Positions 34,662 through 42,883 of a stretch of DNA of 64,000 bases are shown piece by piece (position 1 is the stretch's first letter; the number at the start of each line of letters is the position of its first letter). The stretch is from NCBI RefSeq assembly GCF_005503555.1, contig NZ_SCNG01000001.1:682001-746000 (forward strand), given 5' to 3'. The position numbers and the translations under genes are program-made. Below the pieces are notes generated by a model. The model was not told the origin of the DNA. It was given only the letters and a program-made list of their open reading frames with translations, and did not search any database. Origin of the DNA: Rudaea sp. 3F27F6. GTDB lineage: Bacteria > Pseudomonadota > Gammaproteobacteria > Xanthomonadales > Rhodanobacteraceae.

Positions 34662-36632
34662 TTATTGACAACCTGTTGGTGGTTGCCCCAGCCGCACAAG
34701 ATTCAAGGTACCACCGAGCCCCTTGTTGGCGCCGGCGGTAAAGCTATAGGTCAACGTCATCGTCGTGCAAGTGGGGAAAGTGACGGTCGCCGTGCCAACC
34801 TGGGTCGTCGTCACCGCCAGCGGATTCACGAAGATTCCGCCGCTACCCGCATTGATATTCACCGTGTAGGAATTGCCTACCGCAGGCTGCGTAGAAGGCG
34901 ACTGCAACGAGAACCAGTTCTGGCTCGCGCCGCCGCCGGTCTGCTGTCCGTTTTGGGCGTACGTGAACCAGCCGCCGAACAAGAATGATCCCTGCGCGGT
35001 GGAATAGGTGTTCAACACCAGCCCCTGCCCGCTTGTATCGGGGTTGTACCAGCTGCCCGAATATTGATCGCCGGCGGCCGGCGATCCGCTATCCCCCGTA
35101 GGAGTACAAGTCGCGCCACCCGTCAAACGATTCAGAGTGGTAAAGCCTTGACGACCATCGTTGAACGTATAGCTAAGAATTCCATGCGTGCAGTCGACAA
35201 ACCGCAGCTTGGCCTGGCCCACCGCAACGGGCGACACAACCGGGCCGGCATTGAAGTTGCCGCCGGTTCCGGCATAGATCGTCAGATTGGCGACGAGATC
35301 CGTGCTGGTCACGTCCCCTTGCAGCGAATACCAGCGCTGACCGCCGGCGGCCGTCACGTCGTAGGTGAACCAGCCGCCGAACAGCGTCCCGTTGCCGGCG
35401 CCTTTGACGTCGGGCATGGATTCCAAAAGGATGCCTTGGCCGCTCGCGCTCTGGTTGTACCAGGAGCCGGTCAGGCCGCGCTGGTCGAGATTCACCGTCA
35501 TATTGGCCGAACTCGTCGTTACGCTGTAGAGCGGCGTCTGACCAACGCCGATCGGCCCGCGCGCGACATTGACCGACAGATCGACGATCGCGACCGACCC
35601 ACCGCCAGCGATACTGACGTACGCATAGGTTCCGGTTGAGTCGAGCGATATGCCCGAAGGATTGATACCGATCCCCACCAAAGCAGTGACGGCTTTGGTC
35701 GCGGTGCTGATGAGGGAAAGGGTGCCGTCGTAGTAATTGGCTACGTATACAGTCACGCCGTCGGACGAGATCGCGATAGCGTTCGGCCCCGCGCCGACCG
35801 GAATGGCCGTTGTTTCGACCCCAGCAGCCAGGTCGATGACCGAAACCGCGCCTTTTTGTCCGTAATCGCCAAATGCATAGTCACTGACGTAAGCAAATTT
35901 GCCAGCCGGGTCGATGACGATCCCAATCGGATTGCTGTAGCTCAAGGCAATCGTACTGAGTGCCGCATTGTTCACTGCATCGATCACCGCAACGCGGCTT
36001 TTATCCGCGAGCGTCACATAGGCCTTGGTTCCGTCCGGAGTAAACGCGACACCGACCGGATAGCCGCCCACCTTGATCGTCGCGGTAACTGTATTCGTCG
36101 CCAAATTGATCGCCGAGAGGGTGTTGTCGACGGTATTGGTAACGTAAGCGGTCGTGCCCGCAGGATTGATTGCAATTATCTGCGGTCGGATGCCGACCGT
36201 TATCGTCGTGACTATCGCCGGGTTCGCCGCAGCGGGATTGGTGGAATCGATCACCGAAACCGTTCCCGGTGTTTTCGTATCCGTGCTGTCGCCGAAGTTG
36301 ACTACGTAAACACGCGTCCCGGCAGGGTTGATCGCAATACCGACAGGATTCACACCAATGCCGGGCTTTGCCGGATCGGTCGTCGTCGCCGCAACCCGCG
36401 TCGGGACGGTCGTCACTACCTTGTTCGTCGACTGATCGATCACCGACACGGTACTGTCGGTGTAATTGACGACATAGCTGTAGGGGGCAGCGAACGCAGT
36501 TCCTACGCTGAACCAGATGCCCAGTGCCGCCATCAGGAAACGCTTCGCGCCCCAGATTTTCTCGAGAGTATGGGCGACACGGGACGGACCCAGCGCCTCC
36601 CTCAGCCAATGCGCGCCGGACGCGTTGCTCAT
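34662..36632 (-). CDS. Exported YVTN beta-propeller protein with two C-terminal G-x-WY modules
   Basis: Encodes 656 residues. A hydrophobic export signal (MAALGIWFSVGTAFAA) ends near residue 50, after an unusually long N-region; an internal start is possible. Residues about 50-370 are YVTN/LVIVD-type repeats (YVVNYTDSTVSVID, AYVTNTVDNTLSAI, VYVANYYDGTLSLI). The C-terminal half contains two copies of a module: GSWYNQSASGQGI and GSWYNPDTSGQGL, each followed by FGGWFTY and ending in a (T/S)L..L.RL strand. The modules are not a family I can name. The protein is probably surface or secreted; function unknown. A 16-bp palindrome lies just upstream of the start. Confidence 0.8.
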   Translation of the reverse strand: MSNASGAHWLREALGPSRVAHTLEKIWGAKRFLMAALGIWFSVGTAFAAPYSYVVNYTDSTVSVIDQSTNKVVTTVPTRVAATTTDPAKPGIGVNPVGIAINPAGTRVYVVNFGDSTDTKTPGTVSVIDSTNPAAANPAIVTTITVGIRPQIIAINPAGTTAYVTNTVDNTLSAINLATNTVTATIKVGGYPVGVAFTPDGTKAYVTLADKSRVAVIDAVNNAALSTIALSYSNPIGIVIDPAGKFAYVSDYAFGDYGQKGAVSVIDLAAGVETTAIPVGAGPNAIAISSDGVTVYVANYYDGTLSLISTATKAVTALVGIGINPSGISLDSTGTYAYVSIAGGGSVAIVDLSVNVARGPIGVGQTPLYSVTTSSANMTVNLDQRGLTGSWYNQSASGQGILLESMPDVKGAGNGTLFGGWFTYDVTAAGGQRWYSLQGDVTSTDLVANLTIYAGTGGNFNAGPVVSPVAVGQAKLRFVDCTHGILSYTFNDGRQGFTTLNRLTGGATCTPTGDSGSPAAGDQYSGSWYNPDTSGQGLVLNTYSTAQGSFLFGGWFTYAQNGQQTGGGASQNWFSLQSPSTQPAVGNSYTVNINAGSGGIFVNPLAVTTTQVGTATVTFPTCTTMTLTYSFTAGANKGLGGTLNLVRLGQPPTGCQ

Positions 36633-36645
36633 GCTTGCACCTGAT

Positions 36646-36661
36646 GTTCGTAACTACGAAC
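36646..36661. promoter_or_regulatory. Perfect 16-bp palindrome upstream of the propeller gene
   Basis: GTTCGTA-AC-TACGAAC, 14 bp upstream of the start codon at 36632. A possible -10 TATCAT (minus strand, 36672-36667) lies just before it, so a bound protein would cover the transcription start. Candidate operator. Confidence 0.5.
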
Positions 36662-36773
36662 GCGGAATGATACGTCAAAAACCACTGATCACGCGCACTG
36701 AAACGCATTGGCACAAAGGGCGTTCAGTTCGCATTGTTGTCGCGCGGGCTATGCGAGCCGCGAAAGCAGGCGC

Positions 36774-37721
36774 TCAGTGACTCCGCTGCCGCCTATACGC
36801 AATACCGGCACCGGCGAGCAAAGAAAGTACGAGGGTGCCGAGCCCAGCCAAAGACAACGACGGCGCTCCGACCGCAGGGGGCGGTGGATCGACGCCTCCC
36901 GAAGAGCACGAGGGCGACGAAATGGCCAGGCCGCTCATCGGCGTCGGAAATAAAGGCTTCGTCTGAGGTTCAGCAATCGTGCCGACCGTGTTCATCGCGC
37001 CGCTCTTGGGATTGATCTGCCCGAGAGAGTTGAGCTGGTTCGGCAGTCCGTTGTTGAGGTTTCCGTTGAAATTGCGCAGCAGACTCCAGAGCGTTCCGGA
37101 GCCGTCGAAAGAAGCATCGATCGGATTCGGCACGTTGACTCCGTAGCCCCCGCCGATGGCCGTCGCTTTCGCGGTGTCGGTGGCGATCGTGTAGAGATTT
37201 CCGTTGCCGGCGCCGCCTATTCCGTAAAGCACTTTGTCGCGAAAAGCCAATCCGGTGATCTTGACGCCGAGATTGCCCACCGAACGCGCATCCCCGCTCC
37301 CCGGCGTGATCTGCCAGAGATTGTTGCTGCTCGAAGAAGCCATCCAGAGATTGCCGTCGCAGTCGAAAGACATCGACAGGTTCGGCGCCGTGGCCGCATC
37401 GATGCCGCGAAGCTGGGAGACAAAGCTCGCTTTTCCGTTGAGGGTATTCAGCGTCAGAAGCGAAGCACCCCCCCCCGTCCCGGTAACCGCGTATAACGCC
37501 TTGTCGGTACCGATCGTCAGCCCGCTGACGGCCGTAATCGGAGTTCCGTTCAACGACCCGACAGAGCCGATCGGAGTGGCGGTCCGCGCAGACAAATTAA
37601 GCAGATAGATCGCTTGAGTGCCGTCCGCGGCAGGGCCGCCGGCCGTATAGGCAGATCCTTGCGCGCGGCACAAACCGGCGACAACAAGGAAACTCGCGGC
37701 GATGAAAGCACGCAAAGCCAT
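36774..37721 (-). CDS. Exported propeller-like protein with C-terminal sorting-like tail
   Basis: Encodes 315 residues. A signal peptide (MALRAFIAASFLVVAGLCRAQ) is followed by a domain resembling DUF4394-like/NHL propellers (IYLLNLSARTATPIGSVG, LYAVTGTGGG, LYGIGGAGNGNLYTI). Near the end a Pro-rich stretch (DPPPPAVGAPSLS) leads into a hydrophobic helix (LGTLVLSLLAGAGIA) and YRRQRSH. The signature-helix-basic tail order resembles IPTL/PEP-CTERM-type sorting signals. Function unknown. A TAGAAT lies only about 13 nt upstream of the ATG and no ribosome-binding site is apparent. Confidence 0.75.
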   Translation of the reverse strand: MALRAFIAASFLVVAGLCRAQGSAYTAGGPAADGTQAIYLLNLSARTATPIGSVGSLNGTPITAVSGLTIGTDKALYAVTGTGGGASLLTLNTLNGKASFVSQLRGIDAATAPNLSMSFDCDGNLWMASSSSNNLWQITPGSGDARSVGNLGVKITGLAFRDKVLYGIGGAGNGNLYTIATDTAKATAIGGGYGVNVPNPIDASFDGSGTLWSLLRNFNGNLNNGLPNQLNSLGQINPKSGAMNTVGTIAEPQTKPLFPTPMSGLAISSPSCSSGGVDPPPPAVGAPSLSLAGLGTLVLSLLAGAGIAYRRQRSH

Positions 37722-37865
37722 CTGACTTTAGATTCTATTGTTATAGTAGTTTTGGTAATCGTCTGCCCGCGCAAACCTATTGCAGGCTACCGGAGCCTAG
37801 CACAATGATTGCGGAAAACAAGAGGTTAGCGCGGACGGTGTAGATGACCGCGGCGCGAGACGGCT

Positions 37866-39116
37866 CTAGAAAGTCGTAGTCAACAACGCCTCGTAGCGCA
37901 TGCGATTGGCGCCGAAGTTGTTATCCGCAGTGTAGTTCGGAATACCGAACATTTGCAGCGGAGCATAAGCGGCCCTGAAACGAAACGTCGCACGATCGCC
38001 GAAAGCCCTGGCGTAGTCGAACTCCCAATCGTGGGACGAAAGACCATTCAAGAGAAGCAGTTGCTTCAAGGCAAGCATGGCAGGCAGCGGCTGCTCGCGC
38101 GTGCTGTAGCGAACGGCAAACTCACCCAGGATCGCATTGCGCCAAGCCGCCGAAACCGAATAAACGCTCAAATCTTCCCAAGCCGGGGCACGCGTGGACT
38201 GAACGATGAAATATCGCACCTCCGCAGGCAGTGAGTAACCGACAAACGGAGTGATCTGCGAATACATGACGCGCTCGGCTTCGGCGCTCACGCGCAAACT
38301 GCGCTCAGGCACCCAATCCAAGCCGAAATTGGCGCTCGCCGGTATGTCGAAACTGCCCGGCTGTCCGAACAGCCCGCGATAAGTGTAGAAATTATCCATC
38401 GCGACGCGCGTCTGGTATCCCGCACGCCAGTTCAGACCGAGTTTGGTAACGAGGCTGCCGCCCAGATCGAAACGCGTACCGAAGCCCGCGGAATTTTCCT
38501 TATAGCGCAAGGCCGACGGGTTCTCCATCCATGCCCAGCCATTCTGCCCGAAAGCGGACGACGAACTCTGCATGGGGGCGAACAAGCTGAAGCGCTGATA
38601 GGCCAGGATCAGCGAAAACCGCATATAGCCGAAATTTTCTAGCGGTTGCGTGAACGACGGCGCGACGATCGTGCGCCGCAGCCCGGGCGACTGATCGGCA
38701 AGAAGGTTGCCCGCATCGGTCACCGCCGCATGAATCGGCGAATCGGAAATGCGCGCCGACTGCATAGCCACATGAAACGGTTTCGCATCCTCGACCGAAG
38801 TGCCGGGAAAGCGTGACGCCGGCGTGCGCGCCCAGCTTGAACGTGAGCGCGTGAAAATCGTCGGCGGCTCGACTGTCTCGCCCGGCTCGCTGGCCCACGA
38901 GAAACCCGACTTCAGACTGTTGAGCGCGTAGTCGCCCCAGCTCTCGGCGAGATCGCCCGAAGCCGCCATCTCCTCCAGTGCGGAAGTTCGCACCGCATCG
39001 GCGACGTTTTTGAATTTGCCCGCGGGTTGAGCGGCGAACGACAATGCAGCAGGCAGCGTCAACGCTGCGCCGATCAGCGCAGCGAGAAAACGTTGCTTGA
39101 TAGCTGTTGACAGCAT
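37866..39116 (-). CDS. Predicted outer-membrane beta-barrel protein of unknown function
   Basis: Encodes 416 residues from the ATG at 39116. Signal peptide: IKQRFLAALIGAALTLPAA..FAAQ. The mature part is rich in alternating aromatic/polar strands (YMRFSLILAYQRFSLFAP, SLRVSAEAERVMYSQ, FRFRAAYAPLQMFG) and ends in LLTTTF, a C-terminal phenylalanine as used by Bam-dependent barrels. I do not recognise the family. It lies between the two propeller genes and thiD, divergent from the latter. Confidence 0.7.
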   Translation of the reverse strand: MLSTAIKQRFLAALIGAALTLPAALSFAAQPAGKFKNVADAVRTSALEEMAASGDLAESWGDYALNSLKSGFSWASEPGETVEPPTIFTRSRSSWARTPASRFPGTSVEDAKPFHVAMQSARISDSPIHAAVTDAGNLLADQSPGLRRTIVAPSFTQPLENFGYMRFSLILAYQRFSLFAPMQSSSSAFGQNGWAWMENPSALRYKENSAGFGTRFDLGGSLVTKLGLNWRAGYQTRVAMDNFYTYRGLFGQPGSFDIPASANFGLDWVPERSLRVSAEAERVMYSQITPFVGYSLPAEVRYFIVQSTRAPAWEDLSVYSVSAAWRNAILGEFAVRYSTREQPLPAMLALKQLLLLNGLSSHDWEFDYARAFGDRATFRFRAAYAPLQMFGIPNYTADNNFGANRMRYEALLTTTF

Positions 39117-39269
39117 AAGGTCCAGACGCACGTCCAGATCGCTCCCCGAATTGGCGCAGATATTGGCGAAAAAACCACATCACGTCAAGGTGTTTTAACA
39201 ATTTCGGCCTTTGCCGATGCGGTTTCTTGCCACTTATTCCAATCCCACCATTGCTTTCGTGACCTTATC

Positions 39270-39287
39270 TGTTGCGCACACGCAACA
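39270..39287. promoter_or_regulatory. Short perfect hairpin in the thiD leader
   Basis: TGTTGCG-CACA-CGCAACA, ending 14 bp before the proposed GTG start of thiD. It could be an operator or a leader stem. It is too short and lacks the conserved core to be a TPP riboswitch. Confidence 0.4.
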
Positions 39288-39301
39288 TATCGGATTTCAT
39301 C

Positions 39302-40108
39302 GTGCTTCGATCCCAGCTTCCCCCCTGCGTTTTGACCATCGCCGGTTCGGACTCGGCCGCGGCGGCCGGCATTCAGGCCGATCTGAAAACGTTCTCCGCG
39401 TACGGGGTGCACGGATTGACCGCAATCGCCGCGGTGACGGCTCAAAACACCCATAGTACGAGTGCGATCCAAGTGTTGCCGCCGCGCATTCTGCTCGCCC
39501 AGCTCGAAGCACTGCGCAACGACTTCCGTATCGCCGCCGTGAAGATCGGCATGCTCGGCAGCGCGGCGAATATCCGCCTGACCGCGCAATGGCTACGCGA
39601 GCACCAGATGCCAAACGTGGTTCTCGACCCGGTATTGGTCGCCAGCAGCGGACGCAATCTGCTGCCGGCCAACGCACTATCGATTCTGCGCAGGCATCTG
39701 TTGCCGCTCGCGCAAGTGCTGACGCCGAACTTGCCGGAAGCTGCGGCGCTGCTTTCGCGACCGATCCGTACGCATGACGAAATGCAGAGCGCAGCGAGCG
39801 AGTTGCGCGATTTAGGCGCGGACACCGTGTTGATCAAAGGCGGACATCTCGATGCGCGCGGAGTGCGCGACTACTTCGTCGACAATCGCGGCGTAGTGGA
39901 ATACGCCCACCAGCGGCGCAGCTATGCCGTGCGCGGCACTGGCTGCAGCTTGTCTTCGGCAATTGCCGCCGGTCTGGCCCTGGGTCTGTCGGCGCGCGCC
40001 GCGGTGGAACGCGCCGAGCGCTATCTACAGAACACATTCCGCAACGCACGCCGAATCGGTCGCGGCCCGTCGCGCATCCTGCAACACAACGCCCCTCACG
40101 GCGATTGA
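39302..40108 (+). CDS. thiD: Hydroxymethylpyrimidine/phosphomethylpyrimidine kinase
   Basis: Encodes 268 residues if the GTG at 39302 is used; an in-frame TTG at 39272 lies within a hairpin and is less likely. Motifs: VLTIAGSDSAAAAGIQADLKTF, VKIGMLGS, VLDPVLVASSG, LTPNLPEAAALL, VLIKGGHL and the GTGCSLSSAIAA anion hole. It phosphorylates HMP and HMP-P for thiamine synthesis. One variation is AAAAG where GGGAG is more usual. No thiE is adjacent. Confidence 0.93.
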   Translation: MLRSQLPPCVLTIAGSDSAAAAGIQADLKTFSAYGVHGLTAIAAVTAQNTHSTSAIQVLPPRILLAQLEALRNDFRIAAVKIGMLGSAANIRLTAQWLREHQMPNVVLDPVLVASSGRNLLPANALSILRRHLLPLAQVLTPNLPEAAALLSRPIRTHDEMQSAASELRDLGADTVLIKGGHLDARGVRDYFVDNRGVVEYAHQRRSYAVRGTGCSLSSAIAAGLALGLSARAAVERAERYLQNTFRNARRIGRGPSRILQHNAPHGD

Positions 40109-40199
40109 CGAACCGAATTGCGCTCTCGCGCATTTGCGGCTAAAACGCAGACGCACCCACGCCGATGCCATCCTGGTATCGGCTCACACGGAGGTTGTC

Positions 40200-40487
40200 A
40201 TGAGGACGATGTTGTTTCTGACTGCGGCGCTGGCCGCAAACGCATCCGCTGCCGAGACGACGGCGACGCCGCAAGCCCAGCCGCTTGCTGAACCGCTCGC
40301 AGCGACGCCGGGCATCGCAAGCATCAAGGCAAAAGCGGAAAGCCAGACCGCCACCAGCCCGAAAATTCACGAGATCGTCGCAACACGCAATGCCGACGGC
40401 ACGCTCGAAATCGGCTGCGCCGAACGCCCGAATCCGACAGCGCACAAGCCGCCTCTCAACACGATCTCGCCGGAGCCGCAGCAATGA
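40200..40487 (+). CDS. Small exported protein translationally coupled to the metalloprotease
   Basis: Encodes 95 residues with an excellent GGAGG ribosome-binding site and a signal peptide (MRTMLFLTAALAANASAAET). The mature part is Ala/Pro/Thr-rich at first and then holds a compact segment, EIVATRNADGTLEIGCAERPNP, with a single cysteine. I do not recognise the family with confidence. Its stop codon overlaps the start of the metalloprotease gene (ATGA). The coupling suggests an exported partner, inhibitor or folding aid for the protease; this is inference. Confidence 0.75.
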   Translation: MRTMLFLTAALAANASAAETTATPQAQPLAEPLAATPGIASIKAKAESQTATSPKIHEIVATRNADGTLEIGCAERPNPTAHKPPLNTISPEPQQ

Positions 40488-42883
40488 GCGCGCGCAAGCC
40501 CTGGGTCCGCGCCCTCCTCTTCGCAAGCACGGCCTTGTGTTCGTCGGCCGCATTCGCAGACGCGCCGCTCGCGGCCGCCGGCGCGACCAATCTGACGTTC
40601 AATCCCTATTCGCTCTATACGAACCTGTACATCGACATCGATGCTAGCGCGCAGCAGCTCAACGTCAACTTGACCGGCACCGGCGGCGACGTCGACCTGT
40701 ATCTGCGCTACGGCTCGCCATTCCCCGACTGCAGCGCGACGCGCTGCAGCGACGACATGATCCTGCGCTACGCGCAGTATCACTCGATGAGTTCGTCATC
40801 GAACGAGTCGATCGTCGTCACCAACGCGAGCACGATTCCGCTCAAGGCCGGGCGCTGGTACATCGCCGCACTCAACGGCTCGAGCGCGAGCGCGACGGCG
40901 ACGCTCTACGTGACCACCTCGGCCACCGTGCAAGCCGCGAATATCCAACTCGATTTCGGCAACCCGCGCAGCAGCTCGAGCGACCCAAAGAACAACTGCG
41001 ACGTCGCCCCATGGTCCGATACGACGGCGGCTACGCCGGTCGGCGGCAATGCCGGCACAACGCTCGGCGACCAGCGTAAAAATGCGCTGCAATACGCCGT
41101 GCAACAGCTGGCGCAGCAGATCCAGTCGCCGGTGCCGATCAACGTCCATGCTTGCTGGGCCCACCTCGGCGGCGACAAGAACCGCGCCACGCTCGCACAC
41201 GCATCGTCGACCAGTTTCGCCTTCAGCGACACGAGCTTCCCGATGCCGTGGCTGGTGAAAAAGTATACCTGGTACACGAACACGCAAATCGCGCGCATGG
41301 GCGGCGTGAGCAACTGCGGAGCCCTCGGCGGCGACTGCAGCGGCGTACGCAACGACGTCATCGAAATCACCTTCAATTCGGACATCGGCACGCCGAACGT
41401 CATCGGCGGCAGCCCGTTCTATCTCGGCTACACGGCGGGTGCGAACTCGAATTCGTCCGACTTCATCGCCGTCGCGATGCACGAGATCACGCACGGCCTC
41501 GGCTTCCTCGGCCTCGCCAACGTGGATCCAAGCTCGGGCCCGATCGGTGCGCGTGCCGGCATCACCACCGGCGCCTCATCGATCAGCTATCAGAACTACG
41601 ATCAAGGCCCGTGGGACGACATCTTCGGCGACAATATCGTCAAGGTCGCAAGCGACAGGCAGAACTACACGCCGTTTTACGGCTATGAACTGACCAGCCA
41701 GCCGGGCAACGCGGCGCGCGCTGCGGCGATGACCTCGGGCAATACCGTCACCGCGACAGACCTCGGCGCGCTCTACACCCCGACTCTGCTGCGCTGGTCC
41801 GATCCGCTCGCTGTGAATTCTTCGGCGAATCAAGCCACCGGCAATCCACCGGACAACTTCCCCAGCCTCTACGCACCCTGCGATCTCACTCAGACCGCGA
41901 CGTGCAGCACGTCGAGCGGCTCGACGCTTTCGCACACCGTGCAGCAAGGCGACCTGATGAACGCCTTCATCAATCGCGGGCAGGTACGCCAAATGGGCCT
42001 CGCCGCGCCGATGCTCGCCGCGATGGGCTGGTCGACCTCGCCCGCTGCGGCACCGGTCTACGCCAAGCCGTTCACCGGAATCTGGTACGACCGCACGCAC
42101 AGCGGCCACGGCATCGATTTCCGTCTCGTTCGCCACGATGCGAACTACGGCGATGCCTATCTCCTGGCCTTCTACACCTACGACGCAACCGGCTCAGTGG
42201 AAATCTTTCAGGCCCAGGGCAACATCGTCGATGGTGTCTTCGTCCCCATCATCATCGGCCCTGACGACAGCACGCTGACACGCTTTCAGTACGACCCCGT
42301 TGCCAAGACGATCAAACCGGTCGCCAATACCGGCGGTCGTGTCGTCGTCGACTTCAATCAGGCCGCCAACTCTCCCGCGTGCCGGAACATCGACCGCAGC
42401 GCTGCGCCCTTGCTCGGCGTCATGAGCTGGTCGTTCGCTGACACGACCGGGAAAATCACCGAACAAAGCGACTGGTGCCTGGAGCCGCTGACCACACTCG
42501 CACAAAATGCGTCGCCCGATCACGGCGGCCTGTACTACGGTGGTTCGGGCGATACCGGCTGGGGAATCTCCGTGCTCGATATCAACCGCGGCGCTGCGGG
42601 CGAACAGCTGTGGATCGATTTCTATTATCCGGACGCCAACGGCAAACCAATCTGGGCGGTCGCCAACGCGCAGCCGTACGTCAACGGCCAGACGATTCCT
42701 CTGATCCAGAATGCCGCGGGTTACTGCCGCACCTGCAAGCCGGTGGCGCAGAACCAGGTGCAGGTCGGCACGATCACGCTGAACTTCGGCACGCCGACGA
42801 CCGCAACGATCGTCGCGAATTATACCGGCGGTTCGTTCATGCGAACGAACGTACCGCTGGTCAATCTCGGGGTCGCGCAGTAA
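40484..42883 (+). CDS. Secreted zinc metalloprotease with N-terminal PPC-like domain and C-terminal G-x-WY modules
   Basis: Encodes 799 residues with a signal peptide ending SAAFADA. Residues about 40-145 resemble a pre-peptidase C-terminal (PPC) domain (DVDLYLRYGSPF, WYIAALNG), placed here at the N-terminus. The protease domain has H333EITH337GLGF with a following glycine, a metzincin-like zinc site, and ends with MLAAMGWS, as in secreted HExxHGLGF proteases. Residues about 530-799 hold two modules: GIWYDRTHSGHGI...FYTYDATG, and GLYYGGSGDTGWGI...FYYPDANGKPIW. These resemble the modules of the propeller protein at 34662-36632. Many cysteines suggest disulfides. Confidence 0.85.
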   Translation: MSARKPWVRALLFASTALCSSAAFADAPLAAAGATNLTFNPYSLYTNLYIDIDASAQQLNVNLTGTGGDVDLYLRYGSPFPDCSATRCSDDMILRYAQYHSMSSSSNESIVVTNASTIPLKAGRWYIAALNGSSASATATLYVTTSATVQAANIQLDFGNPRSSSSDPKNNCDVAPWSDTTAATPVGGNAGTTLGDQRKNALQYAVQQLAQQIQSPVPINVHACWAHLGGDKNRATLAHASSTSFAFSDTSFPMPWLVKKYTWYTNTQIARMGGVSNCGALGGDCSGVRNDVIEITFNSDIGTPNVIGGSPFYLGYTAGANSNSSDFIAVAMHEITHGLGFLGLANVDPSSGPIGARAGITTGASSISYQNYDQGPWDDIFGDNIVKVASDRQNYTPFYGYELTSQPGNAARAAAMTSGNTVTATDLGALYTPTLLRWSDPLAVNSSANQATGNPPDNFPSLYAPCDLTQTATCSTSSGSTLSHTVQQGDLMNAFINRGQVRQMGLAAPMLAAMGWSTSPAAAPVYAKPFTGIWYDRTHSGHGIDFRLVRHDANYGDAYLLAFYTYDATGSVEIFQAQGNIVDGVFVPIIIGPDDSTLTRFQYDPVAKTIKPVANTGGRVVVDFNQAANSPACRNIDRSAAPLLGVMSWSFADTTGKITEQSDWCLEPLTTLAQNASPDHGGLYYGGSGDTGWGISVLDINRGAAGEQLWIDFYYPDANGKPIWAVANAQPYVNGQTIPLIQNAAGYCRTCKPVAQNQVQVGTITLNFGTPTTATIVANYTGGSFMRTNVPLVNLGVAQ

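Follow-up and report, generated by a model that had tools for sequence, protein, structure and literature searches.

The stretch of DNA analysed here (the window, 64,000 nucleotides from Rudaea sp. 3F27F6) carries two genes for unrelated, apparently exported proteins, a beta-propeller protein and a metalloprotease, and both end in two copies of the same module (Table 1). Both open reading frames lie where the sequence-only reading had described them, the true bounds of the four copies fall within about 50 bases of those it gave, and the landmarks it had listed are present: G-x-W(Y), SGxG, an aromatic W(F/Y)T(Y/F) strand and L-x-RL. The propeller of the first protein matches the NCBIfam model TIGR02276 (E 1.5e-36) and its closest solved sequence is the surface layer protein 1l0q (E 9.7e-47), this match covering the propeller only. 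In the metalloprotease the PPC domain comprises residues 49-128 (Pfam PF04151, E 1.8e-7), the sequence HEITH (HExxH) can be read directly, and the NCBIfam model NF038122 reaches 39 bits, which is under its cut-off of 80. The Pfam and NCBIfam matches found with hmmscan in both host proteins are confined to the parts outside the modules.

Table 1. Host genes and module copies, with positions in the window.
Feature	Position	Strand	Description and evidence
Host protein 1	34662..36632	-	656 aa; signal-peptide-like N-terminus, YVTN-type beta-propeller, then P1 and P2
Module copy P1 (first of the propeller-protein pair)	35064..35477	-	profile searches; AlphaFold2 model residues 7-144
Module copy P2 (second of the propeller-protein pair)	34665..35063	-	profile searches; AlphaFold2 model
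Host protein 2	40484..42883	+	799 aa; signal-peptide-like N-terminus, PPC domain, zincin-like metalloprotease region, then M1 and M2
Diverged module copy M1 of the metalloprotease	42071..42520	+	held-out HMM 29.2 bits; model of middling confidence
Diverged module copy M2 of the metalloprotease	42521..42880	+	held-out HMM 21.6 bits; genome profile search; model

Adjoining the propeller gene is a gene (36774-37721, minus strand) for a DUF4394-like protein that scores 27.0 bits against a cut-off of 29.6. Its product has a C-terminal hydrophobic stretch followed by RRQR, resembling a CTERM sorting tail, and reaches only 14 bits with the NCBIfam model PVV-CTERM (cut-off 27). A 421-residue open reading frame between the host genes (37866-39131, minus strand) is matched by no model of Pfam or NCBIfam at E 10. 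In another genome of the same genus (G008, C1:170057-178421) a stretch of about 8.4 kb holds a close match of the propeller module pair together with the metalloprotease; the spacing is much as in the window and therefore the neighbourhood seems to be kept in the genus.

The recurrence of the module in both proteins, as claimed from the letters, goes beyond chance. P1 and P2 share 39% identity in the alignment. An HMM trained on 21 further copies of this genome, with the metalloprotease copies excluded from the realignment, gives M1 29.2 bits and M2 21.6 bits, well above the best of 2000 shuffled M1/M2 sequences (7.5 bits). The search rounds that supplied these 21 training copies did eventually take in M1 and M2; the first round, seeded by P1 and P2 alone, already returned 18 domains. 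A genome-wide profile, with M1 and M2 included in it, recovers all four copies of the window among 31.

None of these 31 copies has an E above 1.1e-4, and they are distributed over 19 open reading frames in the 16 contigs (5.7 Mb) of the genome from which the window comes; the description of a module in two unrelated exported proteins was correct for these two but far too modest for the genome. Of 21 genomes, this one and 20 relatives, 20 contain the module, and the copy number in a positive genome ranges from 7 to 70. The tandem profile at 1e-5 detects it in 139 of 200 genomes of the order, and an even draw from the phylum yielded two positive genomes in 299, namely the window's own and one of the same family; at most 12 (order) or 14 (phylum) candidates were scored per genome and thus the copy numbers from these two surveys are lower bounds. 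Given this distribution across relatives, order and phylum, the module is a lineage-bound, strongly expanded domain. The 66 loci from named records, which were found via the pattern WY[ND]xx[TA]SGQG, include Rudaea cellulosilytica, Rhodanobacter, Pseudolysobacter and Marinicella and, from metagenomes, Lysobacterales, Chromatiales, Woeseiaceae, Alcanivoracaceae, Oceanospirillales, Betaproteobacteria and Burkholderiales. A related propeller protein bearing the pair occurs in R. cellulosilytica (L055). In plasmid records the module was not found.

No already named domain was credibly matched. When 19 single modules were compared with Pfam, nothing credible appeared (five families with one member each, best E 0.051), NCBIfam gave no match, and seven PHROGs families were matched; one of them, phrog_8848 (unknown function), was matched by 3 of the 19 modules with a best E of 0.0048. 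The module profile found two solved-structure sequences, neither of them credible (best E 0.39). A named domain as the identity of the module finds no support in these searches, and the statement that it could not be assigned to a named family holds for Pfam, NCBIfam and the solved sequences, none of which gives a match covering the module. Motif and literature searches in open-access papers returned no paper on the module, which is not proof of its being unpublished. The module seems to represent a new, as yet unnamed family whose fold is of a known kind. At up to 70 copies in a genome it would rank among the larger unannotated components of the exported proteins of these bacteria.

To which proteins the module is attached can be seen from 87 open reading frames taken from the own-genome stretches and the named loci, some of them cut by contig ends. 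Two copies are present in 57 and a single copy in 30. In 78 of the 87 the frame ends no more than 25 residues from the module; in the other nine the module is N-terminal or internal, and one of these (L059) may be a disrupted frame. Of the 86 partner regions 80 were scanned, six short ones being left out; they match 47 Pfam models at E 1e-5, several of which overlap on the same propellers, and some partners are close relatives of each other. Among the matches listed (25 of the 47) are subtilases, lactonase propellers, cyclophilins, MauG peroxidases, trypsins, GDSL lipases, plastocyanins, Ig-like and leucine-rich repeats, intradiol dioxygenases and kumamolisin propeptides. The proposal of a mobile C-terminal domain is borne out in its mobility onto unrelated partners and in the predominant position, but not as a strict rule.

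A hydrophobic N-terminal segment is found in 71 of the 83 module frames with untruncated N-termini and in 45 of 171 other frames, the latter drawn from the own-genome stretches with a minimum length of 250 aa and perhaps including many that are not genes. A lipobox is present in 2 of the 71, both features being scored by a crude test that used no trained predictor.

Two arrangements recur among these proteins. In L070, L078, L079, L082 and L083 the pair precedes a region of ~200 residues, which in L070 shows a weak match to intradiol dioxygenases; PF00775 is matched in 7 of the 80 partner regions. L111 and L114 are cyclophilin-type proteins that bear a signal peptide and a single module at their end, and PF00160 is matched by L111 and, overall, by 4 of the 80 partner regions.

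How the module has spread is indicated by a tree built for 51 of the 57 two-copy frames (102 modules); the window's metalloprotease is among the six left out (score under 40), and 44 of the 99 inner branches lack resolution. For 96 of the 102 modules the closest neighbour on the tree occupies the same place in its pair, first or second, and for 4 it is the partner copy of the same protein; the position label changes 9 times on the tree versus 34.5 times when shuffled. This predominance of same-position neighbours indicates that the duplication of the module is old and that unrelated partners have mostly acquired the two copies together. The module is thus mobile as had been supposed, but the usual mobile unit appears to be the pair rather than the single copy. 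Among the 30 best loci for the catalytic region of the metalloprotease, the window's included, none lacks the module and 29 carry two copies, at a threshold of 0.01 per domain at which several copies reach only 8-14 bits. The metalloprotease line has kept its pair.

The Gly-X-Trp start and the L-x-R end had suggested a calycin from the letters, before any folding. AlphaFold2, supplied with 41 aligned tandem sequences, predicts the propeller pair with a pLDDT of 88.7 and a pTM of 0.88 and gives each module eight strands, which in P1 lie between residues 10 and 123 and in P2 form a like set. The metalloprotease pair is predicted less well (pLDDT 69.6, pTM 0.63). The folded alignments used 39 of 43 tandem stretches, leaving out both of L073 (one with masked letters), L057, whose pair is 91% identical to that of L056, and L107, whose pair is 96% identical to that of L105. 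With VIA-align, where a Z under 8 is common, P1 is closest to the designed barrel 6czj (Z 10.1, 2.7 A, 102 aligned), P2 to streptavidin 3wzo (Z 9.4, 3.4 A, 106 aligned), M2 to 6czj (Z 8.3) and M1 to 8ah9 (Z 7.6). Designed barrels and avidins rank first, avidins reach up to Z 8.9, and the alignments to them cover nearly the whole module. The eight-stranded barrel typical of calycins is accordingly a prediction for P1 and P2 (VIA-align Z up to 10.1) and a weaker one for M1 and M2. The copies might have been predicted as structures of different kinds; instead both tandem models are beta-barrels that match the same kind of solved barrels, with middling confidence for that of the metalloprotease.

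According to PMC3367933, the calycin signature combines a Gly-X-Trp in strand A with an Arg in strand H. In 110 modules the Trp is present in 110 and the Arg in 101, with Lys in 3; this set, and with it the conservation of the WY..SGQG stretch, is partly selected because the named loci were found via that pattern. Among the 31 own-genome copies 27 have the Trp and 22 an Arg or Lys, with 5 gaps. In the P1 model Trp12 lies in the strand 10-13 and Arg123 at the end of the strand 116-123. The metalloprotease copies had been called diverged and indeed depart from the signature, as M2 has Gly-X-Tyr and the final Arg is absent from both M1 and M2. Two cysteine positions are also conserved, each with Cys in 109 of the 110 modules and with Cys in 25 and 20 of the 31 own-genome copies (10 gaps at the second position); this pair probably forms a disulfide.

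The structural likeness could be a mere common arrangement of small barrels, the module then being an unrelated new beta-barrel without ligand or calycin ancestry. The absence of a sequence-level link to avidin or lipocalin fits this possibility, as does Foldseek, in which no match reached E 0.001 (best 6.5e-3). Its top rows have TM-scores near 0.2 across the full two-barrel model, and the streptavidin tandem dimers, second and third in rank, stay under 0.2. Nevertheless, we regard it as unlikely, as VIA-align of the propeller pair reached a Z of at least 8 in 30 of 992 aligned chains and the Gly-X-Trp and the Arg sit on the first and the last strand of the model.

The main rivals to an adaptor role are sorting and oligomerisation. 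In the first case the module would be a secretion or sorting signal, with an outer-membrane machine recognising the barrel as in type 11 systems, whose cargo (fHbp, TbpB, HphA) has a C-terminal eight-stranded barrel behind varied N-terminal domains, as set out in PMC12282271. Chains of fHbp, HphA and HpuA are among the structural matches and the position of the module near the end of most frames would suit such a signal. On the contrary, the T11SS porin family SlipAM occurs in 6 of the 139 module-positive versus 10 of the 61 module-negative genomes of the order, and the window's genome has no SlipAM match at E 1e-5, a search in which 14 control genomes were silent too. Type 11 secretion is thus disfavoured, and the nine N-terminal or internal modules likewise disfavour a strictly C-terminal sorting signal of the PEP-CTERM or T9SS type. 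The type II component GspG is almost universal (189 of 200 genomes; missing in 8 of 139 module-positive and 3 of 61 module-negative) and therefore does not discriminate. Taken as a whole a sorting signal appears improbable to us, though a type II secretion role is possible.

Within family f1, outside the window's genus, 4 of 32 genomes are module-positive (G173, G336, G413, G453), and these are exactly the four with a GspG E below 1e-50; this pattern, uncorrected for kinship, is at most suggestive. An exception is the window's genus, which has modules and weaker GspG matches (4.8e-26, 5.0e-29), and family f2 contains several genomes with a strong GspG and no module, for example G364 (4.2e-54).

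Avidin barrels tetramerise, and avidins are the best natural structural matches of the module. The lipocalin-like domain of Pab87 is a precedent in a protease, being linked to oligomerisation and driving assembly of the enzyme (PMC3367933). That the module is an oligomerisation or assembly domain of this type, for which the prediction of the pair as one rigid unit would also be suitable, is nonetheless quite unlikely, as the very diverse partners and the coexistence of double and single forms reveal no common assembly need.

We therefore read the module as a new calycin-like family that serves as a non-catalytic adaptor on exported proteins, with ligand binding and retention as inferred functions. 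We put the probability at roughly 60% that the pair is an adaptor of predicted calycin-like barrels which would hold exported proteins via a common ligand. This reading builds on observations: the copies are homologous, their partners are unrelated, and the pair has spread as such and expanded throughout the lineage. The module would be a self-contained, extracytoplasmic eight-stranded barrel of about 120-135 residues (150 in M1), often part of a rigid pair of barrels and usually appended to the C-terminus. The host protein is predicted to be exported, after which the barrels would fold and be locked by the disulfide. The folded barrels may then bind their common ligand, either a component of the surface or matrix or a small molecule inside the barrel, as the fold and the breadth of partners suggest. 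The enzyme or binding protein would in this way stay at the surface, in the matrix or on its substrate, the pair acting as a passive adaptor. Surface retention or substrate binding, which had been offered as possible roles at the outset, is plausible.

A bolder version of the adaptor reading, in which the calycin-type pair is a universal address tag of the order and tethers dozens of unrelated secreted enzymes per genome, with up to about 70 barrel copies, to one ligand of the envelope or matrix, is possible but doubtful. If true, it would be a Gram-negative parallel to carbohydrate-binding modules and surface anchors, built on the avidin/lipocalin fold. The calycin reading leads to a testable question, namely what the ligand of the barrel is and whether the exported enzymes are held at the cell, and a ligand-binding tag might become a tool for protein display.

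How does the module compare with known barrels? Streptavidin carries a biotin-binding aspartate on strand H, for which the module has no evident counterpart by eye. With the avidin/streptavidin family (PF01382) the module shares the predicted eight-stranded barrel, a similar length, a first strand of the form G-x-W(Y)N and a VIA-align Z up to 9.4; unlike these proteins it forms a covalent tandem pair appended to other domains and gives no Pfam or profile-profile signal. In the profile comparison, for which the avidin family found in 12 of 398 genomes of the phylum was used (0 of 185 in the class, where controls were silent too), the module scores 14.5 against avidins and 17.7 against bacterial lipocalins, both within the column shuffles (top 15.9 and 18.1; 60 shuffles). 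The reversed module profile reaches 16.1 against avidin, above the real score, the PPC control 10.4, and avidin against lipocalin 11.8, no signal either. In addition, none of 19 module members matches PF01382 or PF08212 at E 10 in Pfam. Homology to avidin or lipocalin at the level of sequence profiles is not supported by these scores and the module is therefore filed in neither family. With Lipocalin_2 (PF08212) it has in common the barrel and the Gly-X-Trp/Arg signature (PMC3367933), but its profile has about 130 positions versus 146, and it has paired cysteines, many fusion partners and no sequence signal. The cargo of type 11 systems resembles it in the C-terminal eight-stranded barrel and differs in that SlipAM and the module do not go together across the 200 genomes. 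The module profile did not retrieve AimA of Aeromonas (6b7l) from the solved sequences at E 10. AimA differs from the module pair as a free two-domain protein, reported by its authors within Aeromonas only (PMC6219842), yet it is likewise secreted and has two calycin-like domains in tandem, with a Z of 8.6.
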